This document shows, piece after piece, positions 1,988-30,409 of a stretch of 64,000 bases of DNA. The first letter of the stretch is position 1, and each line of letters opens with the position of its first letter. The stretch covers positions 434,001 through 498,000 of the forward strand of contig NZ_MTQO01000053.1 in NCBI RefSeq assembly GCF_001984155.1, given 5' to 3'. The notes under the pieces were generated by a model. It did no database searches, was not told where the DNA came from, and saw only the letters and a list, made by a program, of their open reading frames with translations. Origin of the DNA: Actinosynnema sp. ALI-1.44 (GTDB taxonomy: Bacteria; Actinomycetota; Actinomycetes; Mycobacteriales; Pseudonocardiaceae). The position numbers were made by a program, and so were the translations under genes.

Positions 1988-3190
1988 TCAGTCCAGGGTG
2001 AACGGGTCGTACGTGATGTGGTCCAGCGGCGTGCCCGCGACGAGCATGCGCGAAACGGTCGACCTGATCATCGCTGGTGACCCGCTGACAAGCACATCCC
2101 GGTCCGCCCACGCTCCATAGCGCGTGACCACGTCGGCCAGAGTGCCGTGCTCGACCCCGGTGGCGTCCGGTTCGGACTCGAGCACGGGGACCACGGTCAG
2201 CCACGGGTTGGTGCTGGCCAGGTGCTGCAGGTTCTTGAGGTCGTACAGATCAGACAGAACGCGGCCACCGTAGAAAAGGTGCACGCGCGGATTCTCGCCC
2301 CACTGGCTGAGCTCGTCGATGATCGCCCGCATGGGAGCGAGGCCCGTTCCGCCGGCGACCATGACTAAGTCCCTGGTGTTCTCCCTGTCCACGCGCATCC
2401 GGCCGAGCGGCGGGCCGAGCCGCCACGTTTCGCCGACCTGCGTGTGTCCGACGATGGCGCGGCTGACCCAGCCGCCTTCGACCGTCCGGATGTGGAAGTC
2501 GATGGTCCCGTCCTCGCGGGGCGCGTTGGCCGGGGAGAGGTAGCGCCACAGCCTCGGCCGGTGCGGCGTTTCGACGCTGACGTACTGGCCGGGCGTGTAC
2601 GGCATCGGGTGATCGGTCTGCACGGTGACGACGGCCAGGTCCATGCCGATGCGGTGGTGGTCGACGACAGCCGCCGGGTACCAGGCGGGCCCGTCGTCGG
2701 CGTTGGCCGCGTCGAGCATCGCGCGGGCCATGATCGTGTACGCCTCGGCCCACGCGCGTTCGATCTCGTCGGTCCAGGACTTGCCGGAGAACTTCTTCAC
2801 CGCGGCGATCAACGCCGTGCCGACGGCCTCGTAGTGGGCGCTGATCACACCGAACTTGCGGTGGTCGCGGCCGAGTTGGCGCAGGAACGGGTTGAGGTCG
2901 TCCGGCCGGTCGACCAGTTGCACGATGTGCACCAGGGCGCGCAGCAGGCGGGAGCGCTGGACCTGCATGTTGGCGGGGAACATCTCCCGCGCGTTCGGCG
3001 ACAGGCTGAACAGCATCCCGTAGAAGAACTTGGCGACTTCGTCGGACTTGGGCTCGACGACGGCGAAGCTCTCCCGGATGAGCCGCACCATCGCGGCCGC
3101 GCCGGACGCGGCGTCCGATGATCTGGCCTGCGCTGGGCTCGGGGACTTGGGGGACTGCGGTATCGGACTCACTACTGCGTTCGCGGTCAT
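1988..3190 (-). CDS. Flavohemoglobin-like protein (globin + FAD/NAD reductase domains)
   Basis: A 400-residue globin-reductase fusion of the nitric-oxide-dioxygenase type. Residues about 34-160 are globin: FFYGMLF gives the B10 Tyr57 and LGRDHRKFGV the proximal His110. Residues about 165-270 are the FAD domain, with RYLS at 216-219, and the rest binds NAD(P)H (GGTGLAP at 280-286, SGSPAMI near the end). A 33-residue Pro/Ser/Ala-rich N-terminal leader is unusual. Classical enzymes detoxify NO to nitrate. Mycobacteria have a second class (type II, beside clpB) with proposed other roles; the same clpB neighbourhood makes that possible here. Transcribed away from the PPOX gene. The reading frame continues upstream, so a longer GTG start inside 3191-3260 cannot be excluded. 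Confidence 0.88.
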   Translation of the reverse strand: MTANAVVSPIPQSPKSPSPAQARSSDAASGAAAMVRLIRESFAVVEPKSDEVAKFFYGMLFSLSPNAREMFPANMQVQRSRLLRALVHIVQLVDRPDDLNPFLRQLGRDHRKFGVISAHYEAVGTALIAAVKKFSGKSWTDEIERAWAEAYTIMARAMLDAANADDGPAWYPAAVVDHHRIGMDLAVVTVQTDHPMPYTPGQYVSVETPHRPRLWRYLSPANAPREDGTIDFHIRTVEGGWVSRAIVGHTQVGETWRLGPPLGRMRVDRENTRDLVMVAGGTGLAPMRAIIDELSQWGENPRVHLFYGGRVLSDLYDLKNLQHLASTNPWLTVVPVLESEPDATGVEHGTLADVVTRYGAWADRDVLVSGSPAMIRSTVSRMLVAGTPLDHITYDPFTLD

Positions 3191-3422
3191 GGTCGGGGCA
3201 CGGACTCCAACCTGTGGCTCAGACGTCTTGACGGGCGTCACTGTCTTGTCACGTATCCATCCCCCGACAGGGTTGGACAGTAACCCGATTCTCGTGGGAT
3301 GTCCGCCTTGATGCCACCTTCGTGTACTTGTGTGTGACGCAAAGTTCCCCGTCTTCCCTCTTCCGGCGGACAACCGACAGGCGGGCTGGGCGCTCGCCGC
3401 TTGATATGAAACTGTTACGCGC
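3191..3422. promoter_or_regulatory. Divergent intergenic region, flavohemoglobin / PPOX
   Basis: This 232-base region separates two diverging redox genes and must hold both promoters. It is more AT-rich at its right end (around 3340-3415, with GATATGAAACTGTTAC). I could not assign a convincing -35/-10 pair in either direction, nor an NsrR-type operator. Confidence 0.4.
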
Positions 3423-4196
3423 GTGCCTTTCGCAACCCCGACCCCCACCGGCACCGCCGAGGCGCATCTGTTGGACCTCGAACTGGCGGAGCCCACACCC
3501 AGGCCGCGGCCGAACCTCGCCGTGGTCGGGACAGAAATGCCCGATCCCCTCATGGACGCCGAGGAAGCCGACCTGCCCGGATCCAGAGGCGAGCACCTGC
3601 TGCAATGCGCATACGGCAGTCGCGACCGGGCCAAGAAGTTCTACGACAACCAGCTGCTCGACCACCTCAACGAGGCGATGATCGAGTTCGTCGGCCGGAT
3701 GGAGATGGCCTTCGTGGCCAGCGCGGACGCCAAGGGCGAGTGCGACTCGTCGTTCCGTGCGGGCCCGCCGGGTTTCCTGCGGGTGCTCGACGCCAAGCAC
3801 GTCGCGTACCCGGAATACCGGGGCAACGGCGTGCACGCCAGCCTCGGCAACGTCTGTGAGAACCCTCACTTGGCAATACTGATGGTCGACTTCGTCCGCG
3901 ATCTCATCGGCCTGCACGTCAACGGCAAGGCGAGGGTCGTCGAAGACGCCGACATGCGTGCGGACCACCCGGACCTGCCCACCGACCACGACCGCGGCCG
4001 CACCCCGGAGCGCTGGGTGGTGGTCGAGGTGGAAGAGGCCTACATCCACTGCCGCAAGCACATCCCCCACCTGCAGCCGGTCTCGCGGACCCGCGAGTGG
4101 GGCACCGACGACACCAGGCGAAAAGGCGGCGACTACTTCGCGGCCAAGGCCACACAGCGGCTGGAACGGGAAGTGGTGCACACTTCCCGGCAGTGA
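3423..4196 (+). CDS. Pyridoxamine 5'-phosphate oxidase family (FMN-binding split-barrel) protein
   Basis: A 257-residue member of the flavin-binding split-barrel (PPOX) superfamily. Residues about 55-230 carry the fold, with the pattern MEMAFVASADAKGECDSSFRAG, then LAYPEYRGNG-like (HVAYPEYRGNGVHASLGN) and a strand containing FVRDLIGLHVNG. The N-terminal 50 residues are Pro-rich and probably disordered. Family members bind FMN or F420 and reduce small substrates; the substrate here is unknown. The GTG start at 3423 has no good ribosome site. It is divergent from the flavohemoglobin and its stop overlaps the start of a MarR regulator (GTGA), so the two are translationally coupled and the MarR protein probably controls this operon. 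Confidence 0.8.
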   Translation: MPFATPTPTGTAEAHLLDLELAEPTPRPRPNLAVVGTEMPDPLMDAEEADLPGSRGEHLLQCAYGSRDRAKKFYDNQLLDHLNEAMIEFVGRMEMAFVASADAKGECDSSFRAGPPGFLRVLDAKHVAYPEYRGNGVHASLGNVCENPHLAILMVDFVRDLIGLHVNGKARVVEDADMRADHPDLPTDHDRGRTPERWVVVEVEEAYIHCRKHIPHLQPVSRTREWGTDDTRRKGGDYFAAKATQRLEREVVHTSRQ

Positions 4197-27111: not shown

Positions 27112-27252
27112 TGGGTCAGGAAGGGGCCTGAGTCAATCCGTCCAGCTCGTCGAGTGGGAACACGTCAAGTCCGGTTCGGGGAATGTTCGACATGCGTCGA
27201 ACGTATTCCTGAGGGGAAGATCGACGTGGTCGCAGAGCGAAGGGCGAGAAAC

Positions 27253-28080
27253 ATGCAGCTGGGCAAGGTCGGCATCTGGAGCATGGTCCACCTCTGGACC
27301 GATCGGCCGGAGGTCGCGGCCGATCTGGAGAACCTCGGGTTCGGCACGCTGTGGCTCGGCGGATCCCCCAGCGCCGACCTGCGGATCGCGGAAGCCCTGC
27401 TGGACGCGACCAGCACGCTGACGGTGGCCACCGGCATCGTGAACGTCTGGGCCGCCGAAGCGGCCGAACTGGCGGAGTCCTACCACCGGATCGCGGCGAA
27501 GCACGCCGACCGGTTCCTGCTCGGCATCGGCGCGAGCCACAAGATGTTCAACACCCAGTACGAGAAGCCGTACACCAAACTGGTGTCCTATCTGGACGAG
27601 CTGGACGCCGCCGGTGTGCCCGCTGCGGGCCGGGCGCTGGCGGCGCTTGGCCCCAAGGTGCTTGCCCTGTCGGCCGAGCGCAGCGCGGGCGCGCACCCGT
27701 ACTTCGCCCCGGTCGAACACACCAAGCAGGCCAGGCAGACCCTGGGCGAGGGTCCCCTGCTCGCCCCGGAAGTGGCCGTCGTGCTCGAACCCGACCGCGA
27801 CCGGGCCGACCGGATCATCCGCCAGTACACGGACCTGTACCTGAAGCTGCCCAACTACACCAACAACTTGCGCCGCCTCGGCTACACCGACGAGGACTTC
27901 GCCAACGGCGGCAGCGACAAGTTGCTCGGCGCGCTGATCCCCCAGGGCGTCGACAACATCGTCGCCACCGTCGCCGCGCACCACGCGGCCGGCGCGGACC
28001 ACGTGAACCTGCAGGTGCTCACCGCCGACGGATCCCTTGACCTGGAAGCGTTCGAGACGTTGGGCACCGCCCTAACGTGA
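27253..28080 (+). CDS. LLM-class F420-dependent oxidoreductase (luciferase-like)
   Basis: A 275-residue luciferase-like monooxygenase-fold protein, close in outline to the TIGR03620 group of F420-dependent enzymes. It starts MQLGKVGIWSMVHLW, continues LGFGTLWLGGSPSADL (the family xLGFxxxWxGE segment) and ends with HVNLQVLTADG, where the final strand of the TIM barrel lies. The substrate is unknown. ATG 27253 has AAGGGCGAG upstream; the much longer open frame to the left is antisense to the SDR gene and not real. The 3' end overlaps the convergent NOS-like gene by nine bases. Confidence 0.88.
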   Translation: MQLGKVGIWSMVHLWTDRPEVAADLENLGFGTLWLGGSPSADLRIAEALLDATSTLTVATGIVNVWAAEAAELAESYHRIAAKHADRFLLGIGASHKMFNTQYEKPYTKLVSYLDELDAAGVPAAGRALAALGPKVLALSAERSAGAHPYFAPVEHTKQARQTLGEGPLLAPEVAVVLEPDRDRADRIIRQYTDLYLKLPNYTNNLRRLGYTDEDFANGGSDKLLGALIPQGVDNIVATVAAHHAAGADHVNLQVLTADGSLDLEAFETLGTALT

Positions 28081-29136
28081 CCTGTGCGGCCGGAAGGCCG
28101 GGCGGTCGCCCCGGTTGCGCCGGGACCGGAGCCAGGCCAGGCGGTGCTGTGTTTCGGCGTAGTGGTCGGTGATCGTGACCCGGGCGGTGTCGAACGAGTG
28201 CAGCACCGCCCGGTTGAGCTCCAGGGTGGCGCGGTCCCGCCAGAGCGTCCGGTCGGTGGACGTGTCCAGCCCCAGCCGGTCGGCGACCGGCCGGAGCATC
28301 GCGTACGCGGATTCGTCGGCGAGACCGCGCGTGCCGATGTCGGTGCCGACGAACCAGGTGTTGAACGGCGCCGCGGGGTAGTCGATCCCGCCGACGCACA
28401 GGCGCATGTTGGTGATCACCGGCACGGCCGGCCAGCGCAGGCCGAGGTCGGCGAACCACGGCAGGTCCGGGTGCGTCAACGGCACCTCGGTGACCACTTC
28501 GCGGGGGATCCTGAACGGCTGCGGATCCTGCAGGCCCGTGCTGACCACGAGCGGCAGGTGGTCGAAGGCGGTGCGTGCGAGGGGTGGCTGCCAGCCGAGT
28601 GCCTCGACGGACTCGGTGAACTCGATGTTCCTGGCGTCACCCGATTCCGGGTAGCCCGCGTAGCTGACCAGGTGGGCGTTCCAGATCCGCGGGCCGGGCG
28701 AGTCCGGCCGGTCGGGGGCGAACACGGTGACGAGCGGCTGGATCTTGCCGCCGTTGGTGGCCAGCCGGAGGTGTTCGAAGCACTGGGCCGCGACCGCCTG
28801 CGCCTTGTGGATGCCGCGCAGGTCGCGGATCTTGAGCCGTCGCCACGGCAGTCCGCTCGTGCACCAGCCGGTGTCGCGCAGCGCGACTCTGGCGCCGTAG
28901 CAAAGTTCCTCATTCGTGTGCCGGTAGGTGCCGGTCTCCGCGATCTCCGCGCGCACCTCGGCCAGCCGATGGCGCACAGCGCCCGCCTCGGGGTGCGCGT
29001 CGTGGAACATCCGCAGGAAGTCCTCCGCCGCGGCGAAGGTGACCGGACCGCCGGTGATCTTTTCGTTATAAAGGGCGGTCACGGGCCAGAAATCTACGTG
29101 CGCCCACGGCTTTGTCGACACTGCCAGACGGGTCAC
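28072..29136 (-). CDS. Divergent nitric oxide synthase oxygenase-like heme-thiolate protein
   Basis: A 354-residue protein whose whole length runs along the bacterial NOS oxygenase domain: TGTYRHTNEELCYGA, the heme-ligand region (Cys92 in WCTSGLPW), EHLRLATNGGKIQPLVTVFAP, RIWNAHLVSYAGY, VVTEVPLTHPDLPWF, VGGIDYPAAPFNTWF, LADESAYAMLRPVADRLGLDTS and AVLHSFDTARVTITDHYAE. The heme Cys is kept, but the Trp six residues before it in NOS is Leu86, the C-I-G-R motif is C-T-S-G, the arginine-binding Glu appears as Asp266, and the C-terminal pterin-binding segment (W-x-W-x-x-P-P) is missing, with a basic tail instead. It may bind heme but do other chemistry. GTG 29136 lacks a ribosome site; GTG codons at residues 7 and 19 are alternatives. 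Confidence 0.85.
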   Translation of the reverse strand: MTRLAVSTKPWAHVDFWPVTALYNEKITGGPVTFAAAEDFLRMFHDAHPEAGAVRHRLAEVRAEIAETGTYRHTNEELCYGARVALRDTGWCTSGLPWRRLKIRDLRGIHKAQAVAAQCFEHLRLATNGGKIQPLVTVFAPDRPDSPGPRIWNAHLVSYAGYPESGDARNIEFTESVEALGWQPPLARTAFDHLPLVVSTGLQDPQPFRIPREVVTEVPLTHPDLPWFADLGLRWPAVPVITNMRLCVGGIDYPAAPFNTWFVGTDIGTRGLADESAYAMLRPVADRLGLDTSTDRTLWRDRATLELNRAVLHSFDTARVTITDHYAETQHRLAWLRSRRNRGDRPAFRPHRSR

Positions 29137-29276: not shown

Positions 29277-29333
29277 GTCACCGAGTGTCACCGGTGGTGC
29301 TCACGGTGACCGCCAGTCGGGGCCTCGTAGGAT
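29277..29333 (+). promoter_or_regulatory. fba promoter region with inverted repeats
   Basis: GTCACCG (29277-29283) and CGGTGAC (29304-29310) form an inverted repeat around a palindrome CACCGGTG (29289-29296). TAGGAT at 29328-29333 fits a -10 box, with GTGACC 16 bases before it as a weak -35 box. This would start a transcript about 35 bases before fba. Confidence 0.45.
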
Positions 29334-29374
29334 TCGGCTGCACAGGCATCCCAGCCCCGAGGAGGACGAGACCG

Positions 29375-30409
29375 ATGCCCATCGCCACACCCGAGGTCTA
29401 TGCCGAGATGCTGGACCGGGCGAAGCAGAACGAGTTCGCCTACCCGGCCATCAACGTCACCTCCTCGGAGACCCTGAACGCCGCCCTGCGCGGCTTCGCC
29501 GAGGCGCAGAGCGACGGCATCATCCAGGTGTCGACGGGTGGCGCCGAGTTCGCGTCCGGCACCAAGGTCAAGGACATGGTCACCGGCTCCGTCGCGCTGG
29601 CCGAGTTCGCGCACGTGGTCGCCGACAAGTACCCGGTGAACATCGCGTTGCACACCGACCACTGCCCGAAGGACAAGCTGGACGGCTTCGTGCGTCCGCT
29701 GATCGAGATCTCGAAGCAGCGCGTCGCCAAGGGCCAGAACCCGCTGTTCCAGTCGCACATGTGGGACGGCTCGGCGGTGCCGATCGACGAGAACCTCAAG
29801 ATCGCTGCCGAACTGCTCGCCCAGACCGTCGAGGCGAAAATCATCCTCGAGGTCGAGATCGGCGTGGTCGGCGGCGAGGAGGACGGCGTCGCCAACGAGA
29901 TCAACGACAAGCTCTACACCTCCGAGGACGACTACCTCAAGACGATCGACGCGCTGGGCGCGGGCGAGCGCGGCCGCTACCTGCTGGCCGCCACCTTCGG
30001 CAACGTGCACGGCGTCTACAAGCCGGGCAACGTGAAGCTGCGCCCCGAGGTCCTCAAGGGCGGCCAGGAGGTCGCCTCGCAGAAGCTGGGCCGCCCGGCC
30101 GACTCGAAGCCGTTCGAGCTGGTGTTCCACGGCGGCTCGGGCTCGGAGCTGTCGGAGATCCACGAGGCCCTGTCGTACGGCGTGGTGAAGATGAACATCG
30201 ACACCGACACGCAGTACGCCTTCACCCGCCCGATCGCGGCCCACATGTTCAGCAACTACGACGGCGTGCTGAAGATCGACGGCGAGGTCGGCAACAAGAA
30301 GACCTACGACCCGCGCAGCTACCTCAAGAAGGCGGAGACGGCGATGGCCGACCGCATCATCGAGGCCTGCCAGCACCTGAAGTCCGCGGGCCGCATGATC
30401 GCGGGCTGA
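29375..30409 (+). CDS. fba: Class II fructose-bisphosphate aldolase
   Basis: Class II aldolase, the zinc enzyme splitting fructose 1,6-bisphosphate into dihydroxyacetone phosphate and glyceraldehyde 3-phosphate. The 344-residue protein has zinc ligands in ALHTDHCPKDKL (HTDHC) and in the later GNVHGVYKPGN, with the third His in VFHGGSGSE, plus phosphate-binding glycines. Actinobacterial-type insert EEDGVANEINDKLYTSEDDY is present. ATG follows GAGGAGGACGAG. A strong hairpin (30432-30465) ends the gene. The DUF3151 gene follows, as in other actinobacteria. Confidence 0.97.
   Translation: MPIATPEVYAEMLDRAKQNEFAYPAINVTSSETLNAALRGFAEAQSDGIIQVSTGGAEFASGTKVKDMVTGSVALAEFAHVVADKYPVNIALHTDHCPKDKLDGFVRPLIEISKQRVAKGQNPLFQSHMWDGSAVPIDENLKIAAELLAQTVEAKIILEVEIGVVGGEEDGVANEINDKLYTSEDDYLKTIDALGAGERGRYLLAATFGNVHGVYKPGNVKLRPEVLKGGQEVASQKLGRPADSKPFELVFHGGSGSELSEIHEALSYGVVKMNIDTDTQYAFTRPIAAHMFSNYDGVLKIDGEVGNKKTYDPRSYLKKAETAMADRIIEACQHLKSAGRMIAG

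Follow-up and report, generated by a model that had tools for sequence, protein, structure and literature searches.

In bacterial nitric oxide synthases (NOS), according to passages of PMC9500659, the proximal heme-ligating Cys forms a bond with a neighbouring Trp, which tunes the heme, and the pterin, stacked on a conserved Trp, supplies the second electron. The guanidine of the substrate is held by Glu592 in the nNOS described in PMC6120233, and mutation of the pterin-site Trp-447 is described in PMC3795282 as rendering eNOS uncoupled and monomeric. Actinomycetes also encode NOS-family proteins in biosynthetic clusters, such as TxtD, RufN/IlaM, PtnF and Laj3, which the text of PMC10831120 presents as making NO for nitration and other uses, Laj3 having been assayed as a canonical NOS. 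The protein analysed here is likewise an actinomycete member of the NOS family but lacks the pterin site, and no biosynthetic cluster like theirs was seen among the neighbouring genes compared. With the NOS oxygenases of B. subtilis and Geobacillus (PF02898) it shares the fold, the position of the heme Cys and Arg270. Unlike them, it has neither the proximal Trp nor the pterin segment, carries Asp in place of the Glu, and has changed the distal Gly and Tyr. Cytochromes P450 and heme-thiolate peroxygenases resemble it in how they might work: their Cys-ligated heme operates without pterin, P450 uses a distal Thr, and a distal Thr/Ser is found here too. The P450 fold differs from the NOS fold, and the comparison of activities is by analogy only. 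Among the literature matches listed, from a search that left most subscription journals outside, no title or abstract concerned a pterin-less NOS clade, and we found no published experiment on any of the pterin-less proteins discussed below.

The window is a stretch of 64,000 nucleotides from Actinosynnema sp. ALI-1.44 (Pseudonocardiaceae), whose minus strand carries an open reading frame with a GTG start encoding a homologue of the NOS oxygenase (Table 1). Homology places the protein in the NOS oxygenase family. The Pfam profile NO_synthase (PF02898) covers residues 35-337 with an E-value of 1.1e-105 and a score of 354 bits, above the curated cut-off of 22.7, and the best sequence match in the PDB is 2flq (Nitric Oxide Synthase; E 1.1e-80). 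The predicted fold agrees with solved NOS structures, which make up all of the best 50 matches listed in each fold search (40% identity over 312 columns with 6xk6). The homology proposed in the initial annotation is thus upheld by the profile, the alignment, the predicted fold and, as described below, a conserved clade. A Pfam-A scan of the window protein at E-values up to 0.001 returned PF02898 only and no P450 profile. The NCBIfam NOS models matched neither this protein nor the canonical L058 or the annotated NOS L107. A viral origin was rejected, the scan of viral contigs having given one pattern match and no relative.

Table 1. Features of the NOS-like locus and its immediate neighbours, in window coordinates.
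Feature	Position	Strand	Remarks
Luciferase-like monooxygenase gene (start approximate)	27181..28080	+	PF00296; convergent
Pterin-less NOS-like protein with heme-thiolate Cys (clade I)	28072..29136	-	354 aa from GTG at 29136
C-terminal end without pterin-binding WSW segment	28072..28167	-	Internal deletion of ~29 residues, then short RPAF tail and stop
Distal loop FNTWFVGTDIGTR, residues 258-270	28327..28365	-	Thr260 for Gly, Phe262 for Tyr, Asp266 for Glu, Arg270 kept; family alignment
Proximal heme loop LRDTGWCT, residues 86-93	28858..28881	-	Leu86 for Trp, Trp91 for Arg, Cys92 heme ligand; alignments
Second possible start of the NOS-like ORF	residue 26, about 29061	-	
Class II fructose-bisphosphate aldolase	29285..30409	+	PF01116; divergent neighbour, outside the system

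The window protein belongs to a distinct group of relatives. In a maximum likelihood tree of 93 proteins, all pterin-less forms but L104-L106 fall in a single clade (47 rows; bootstrap/SH-aLRT 100/99). Their closest canonical relative is L088, a member of the same family (98/96), and at the next node outward a further 18 canonical sequences from that family are added (92/92). The pterin-less clade is therefore nested among the NOS of Pseudonocardiaceae, in a tree whose alignment kept the trait columns and whose midpoint root serves for drawing only. It divides into clade I, which contains the window protein, clades II, III and IV, and a small group X; clade I forms a single branch in just 24% of 200 bootstrap trees. 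Clade III (L031, L035, L036, L057, L096, L148, L149 and L152-L157) keeps the heme Cys and has lost both Glu266 and Trp261 in 13/13 members. Kibdelosporangium and its close relatives have a second pterin-less gene, which makes up clade IV and has Tyr for the heme Cys in 7/7 cases. Its loci are L164, L173, L072, L075, L078, L080, L082, L084, L086 and G000:C50:352183-353087; the two that were compared lie at trmB, and the last, from the window's own assembly, is split between frames.

Some other NOS-family genes depart from the canonical form in different ways. L104, L105 and L106, from three genomes of another family of the order, have Gly where the heme Cys would be, and their C-terminal deletion is of another kind, with the WSW helix gone and VPP...YHRY kept; they apparently represent an independent departure from NOS. 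Two genomes of the window's genus carry extra NOS-family genes (L073, L076) in which the WSW is substituted (SWRAL, RYSSL) and the segment is otherwise kept.

Simple pairwise NG86 estimates (medians) gave a dN/dS of 0.117 for the clade-I genes of Kibdelosporangium and Actinocrispum (21 pairs); the canonical NOS genes of these two genera gave 0.116 (15 pairs). Values of about 0.12 indicate that the gene is under purifying selection and argue strongly against decay. The median was 0.168 in clade IV (21 pairs), higher in the clade-I genes of seven Saccharopolyspora (0.221, 21 pairs), and 0.338 among three clade-III genes (3 pairs).

Residue conservation was tabulated for 50 distinct clade-I sequences and 44 canonical ones, after collapsing sequences that repeat another's last 280 residues. 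The set omits repeats of other loci (L009, L011-L015, L025), L016 and L113 (one locus of one genome, G026), and split or degraded genes (L069, L070, L102, L103, L159, L162). G303 and G314, which have clade-I scores, lie outside the sequence set, and both groups exclude four rows that have Trp86 without WxW (L076, L104-L106). Because Trp86, the proximal motif, WxW, Glu/Asp266 and residue 261 served in part to define the groups, counts at these positions are descriptive; the canonical group was defined without reference to residues 91 and 260 to 263 (except 261), and the tree gives separate support.

The heme ligand is retained throughout, with Cys at position 92 in 50/50 clade-I and 44/44 canonical sequences. 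The alignment to 2flq pairs Cys92 with the heme Cys, which disposes of the concern that it might lie outside the ligand position, and sets Leu86 against the Trp that stacks on the heme, TSG against IGR and Asp266 against the Glu. The initial annotation had read Cys92, Leu86 and the change from CIGR to CTSG in the same way, and the family alignment agrees on these three as well as on Asp266. Trp86 is found in 0/50 clade-I sequences, all of which have Leu or Met, versus 44/44 canonical ones. Arg270 is kept in every sequence of both groups (50/50 and 44/44), and Trp91 and Phe262 replace Arg and Tyr in all of clade I (50/50 each). The substitution of Asp for Glu266 had also been pointed out; it is real in the window protein but is not a trait of the clade, since 42/50 clade-I sequences keep the Glu found in 44/44 canonical ones and only eight have Asp. 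Gln155 likewise persists in 48/50, the other two, including the window protein, having His. Position 271, an Asn, has become Gly in the window protein and is Ser, Gly or Ala across clade I. Within this clade, changes of Arg158 to Ser and of His/Tyr236 to Pro occur only in Kibdelosporangium and Actinocrispum (7/50 each). We take position 236 to correspond to Tyr341 of iNOS; as 38 of the 44 canonical sequences have His there, it is no general NOS landmark in this set.

The distal pocket has also changed at position 260, where 49 of the 50 clade-I sequences have Thr or Ser (the remaining one has Arg) and none of the 44 canonical ones does. Clades II, III and IV carry Gly or Ala at this position, and the distal Thr/Ser is therefore not general to the pterin-less branch. 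Position 260 presumably matches Gly586 of nNOS. The crystal structure of the nNOS G586S mutant (3fc5) was among the fold-search matches listed, and our literature search on the G586S work found nothing.

The C-terminal pterin-binding segment is missing, as the initial annotation stated, though by an internal deletion of about 29 residues and not by loss of the end of the protein. In the VIA comparison with iNOS (1dwx), the aligned region stops at residue 450. Between the TDHH helix and the following xPxF, clade I has 18-19 residues (44/50 rows parsed), versus 48 in eight of the ten canonical rows parsed among 44 (50 and 17 in the others). The WxW that follows the last conserved helix is present in 0/50 clade-I and 44/44 canonical sequences. 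Loss of the Trp and of the pterin segment is thus conserved across the clade, unlike the change from Glu to Asp. The RPAF tail and stop are common to the orthologues of Kibdelosporangium and Actinocrispum, with small differences in the last residues. The aligned clade-I members of Saccharopolyspora and Saccharothrix have the same deletion followed by a longer tail like the canonical one (RPxF ... RRAxxGxP). We searched the region surrounding the gene's end, in all three forward frames, for WSW-type or HRYY motifs that a frameshift might have hidden. They were absent from all 46 clade-I loci examined (of 50), and also from 3/3 loci of clade II, 10/13 of clade III, 7/7 of clade IV and 4/4 others, whereas the pterin motif was found in 42/44 canonical loci used as a control. 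A frameshifted or truncated gene is ruled out by these results and by the similar ends of the orthologues in the genus. Judged from its sequence, the window protein lacks three of the defining features of a functional NOS that were tested (Trp, Glu and pterin segment).

The distribution of the two gene kinds shows that the pterin-less one can occur without canonical NOS. PF02898 matched 256 of the 390 genomes of the family that were searched, and alignment A2 matched 84 of 150 sampled genomes, with matches to canonical NOS counted. Matches were found in 8/396 genomes of a phylum-wide sample, seven of them besides the window's own; the one of these seven whose sequence was read (G073, i.e., L101) is canonical. 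The single scan of genome contigs, of a kind that picks up close relatives only, gave 30 loci: 21 of clade I, one of clade III and eight canonical. Clade-I records bear the names Kibdelosporangium, Actinocrispum, Saccharopolyspora or Saccharothrix, with one exception labelled Rhodococcus rhodnii (L041, JOAA01000011.1); this 91% identical orthologue groups in the window's genus and is probably mislabelled. Canonical and pterin-less genes occur together in S. hirsuta, one Saccharothrix and three Kibdelosporangium genomes, and where both were mapped they are far apart or on different contigs. The canonical NOS of the window's genome (L070, G000:C51:1021356-1022412) is split over several frames, through either an assembly error or a real break, and lies in one frame in six congeners. 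Across nine genera, 17 sequence-checked genomes, several of them drafts, match PF02898 only through a pterin-less protein (4 with clade I, 3 with clade II, 9 with clade III and 1 with group X); the single match of S. kobensis belongs to clade I. The pterin-less protein is thus not an obligate partner of canonical NOS, and its role as an obligate NOS subunit is ruled out by these 17 genomes.

The genetic context of the gene differs between lineages. The pterin-less gene, regardless of its clade and including clade IV of Kibdelosporangium, lies downstream of trmB in all 14 loci compared besides the window, at about 60 bases to 4 kb where measured (further Saccharopolyspora loci included). The clade-I gene of Kibdelosporangium and Actinocrispum is away from trmB, between the luciferase-like and aldolase genes, and in the window's genome it lies about 110 kb from the trmB locus; it has presumably moved from there. 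The initial annotation had reported an overlap with an F420-type oxidoreductase gene, and indeed the 3' ends of the NOS-like and luciferase-like genes overlap convergently by 9 bases (28072-28080). A similar luciferase-like gene is convergent beside the orthologue in L039, L042 and L043. Farther along, 12 of the 15 loci have an amidohydrolase gene, and 12 have an SDR gene. We considered the amidohydrolase as a dedicated partner and rejected it, since it also lies beside trmB in 17 of the fetched stretches from 19 genomes without a pterin-less gene. The neighbours of trmB thus represent background and name no substrate or electron donor. No substrate gene, ferredoxin or biosynthetic cluster travels with the gene among the neighbouring genes compared. 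Many of the Pseudonocardiaceae loci compared encode a conserved protein just upstream of trmB (for instance L046:4140-4826 and L045:4588-5169), and the two members scanned gave no Pfam match. The flavohemoglobin that had been noted 25 kb away is a real flavohemoglobin-like gene with globin, FAD and NAD domains (1988-3634, minus strand) at 24 kb, but we saw no link between the two.

One published data set bears on expression. In RNA-seq of S. hirsuta VKM Ac-666, a table in PMC9782250 lists the "nitric oxide synthase oxygenase" F1721_08440, the only appearance of this tag in that source, as up 5.40-fold at 24 h with cholesterol in rich medium. Also up were an FtsX permease (F1721_08445, 26.54), an ABC ATPase (08450, 40.83), a histidine kinase (08455, 6.79), a response regulator (08460, 3.71) and an amidohydrolase (08470, 9.71) (PMC9782250). 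We take F1721_08440 to be the clade-I gene because its gene order agrees with that seen at locus L195/L068 in this strain; none of these neighbours occurs within the 16 kb surrounding the canonical NOS of S. hirsuta (L194). The permease operon is transcribed toward the NOS-like gene from its 3' side, with fold changes that drop in that direction, so that antisense read-through is a sober alternative to induction. The source describes a directional library kit and leaves the strandedness of counting unstated (PMC9782250). Convergent read-through being possible, we set this induction aside as support.

Since the Trp and the pterin segment are lost, the NOS cycle as known should not run. Because the Cys is kept and the rebuilt pocket is common to 49 or 50 of the 50 clade-I sequences, a pterin-free, P450-like heme-thiolate monooxygenase or peroxygenase seems to us the most likely role of the clade-I protein, although we hold it with somewhat less than even confidence. 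For these proteins we infer heme binding, loss of NO synthesis and oxygenase chemistry. The heme would be bound through Cys92, as the alignment implies, and with the pterin segment and proximal Trp lost, NO would no longer be made from arginine by the NOS cycle. Both electrons might come from a ferredoxin-type donor, or H2O2 might serve as oxidant, in replacement of the pterin; the new distal Thr/Ser at position 260 could help protonate heme-bound dioxygen; and the substrate would be altered or truncated relative to arginine. The departure from NOS suggested at the outset thus finds support as regards a NOS-derived protein with its heme Cys kept and altered proximal-heme, substrate and pterin sites (from alignment, structure prediction and the clade). 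The further suggestion that it acts, as an oxidase or monooxygenase, on a different amino acid or on a guanidine gains none, no substrate, electron donor or partner gene being evident.

The main rival is a non-catalytic role as sensor or scaffold, which the loss of Glu and of Cys in sister clades favours. The NOS fold could then serve as a heme or ligand sensor or regulator that senses NO, O2, CO or guanidine and acts via protein contacts, its domain being heme-bound or, in clade IV, Tyr-ligated or heme-free. Such a role would suit the persistence of the branch without catalytic residues (Glu and Trp261 in clade III, Cys in clade IV), the lack of a biosynthetic partner, and the purifying selection that prevails even though all pterin-less clades have lost the Trp and the pterin segment. 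However, the Cys ligand and Arg270 persist in 50/50 clade-I sequences, which have a coherent remade distal pocket, and Pfam identifies no output domain in the window protein or the clade-I protein of S. hirsuta. On balance we regard a sensor as possible but less likely than the oxygenase. Residual NOS chemistry without pterin, i.e., H2O2-driven oxidation of N-hydroxyarginine (NOHA) or guanidine to nitrite or NO, or else NO removal, strikes us as improbable. The window protein has His155, Asp266, Gly271, Ser158 and Pro236 for Gln, Glu, Asn, Arg and His/Tyr, and no clade-I sequence retains Trp86. In favour are the Glu and Gln155 still found in most of the clade (42/50 and 48/50), the flavohemoglobin-like gene 24 kb off, and H2O2-driven NOHA oxidation, which appears in the text of PMC10831120 as a standard NOS assay.

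The remaining explanations have less to recommend them. NOS acts as a dimer and many genomes encode both kinds of genes, from which one could imagine an accessory subunit that forms a heterodimer with canonical NOS and tunes its partner; this is very unlikely when the pterin-less protein stands alone in 17 genomes of nine genera (some drafts), S. kobensis too, and when the two genes, where mapped, are so distant. A decaying gene without function would explain why many catalytic positions have changed, but the dN/dS of about 0.12, the open frames in orthologues of several genera and the invariant new residues make it extremely improbable. We return, then, to the oxygenase. Extended to the whole group, the proposal is of an actinomycete NOS-fold branch freed of pterin and of the conversion of arginine to NO, in which clade I would be a P450-like oxygenase with a distal Thr/Ser and clade IV either a Tyr-ligated heme protein or a heme-free scaffold; as a whole we offer it tentatively, as a possibility with the chances somewhat against it.

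These results matter for how NOS genes are read in this family. The clade-I gene of S. hirsuta bears the name "nitric oxide synthase oxygenase" in print (the table of PMC9782250), and such annotations in Pseudonocardiaceae need not imply NO production. NOS is a textbook enzyme with a pterin as one-electron donor and a Trp that softens the thiolate. A natural lineage that has neither the pterin site nor this Trp, and has kept the Cys, provides a ready experiment on why NOS needs both and on how P450-like chemistry differs from it.
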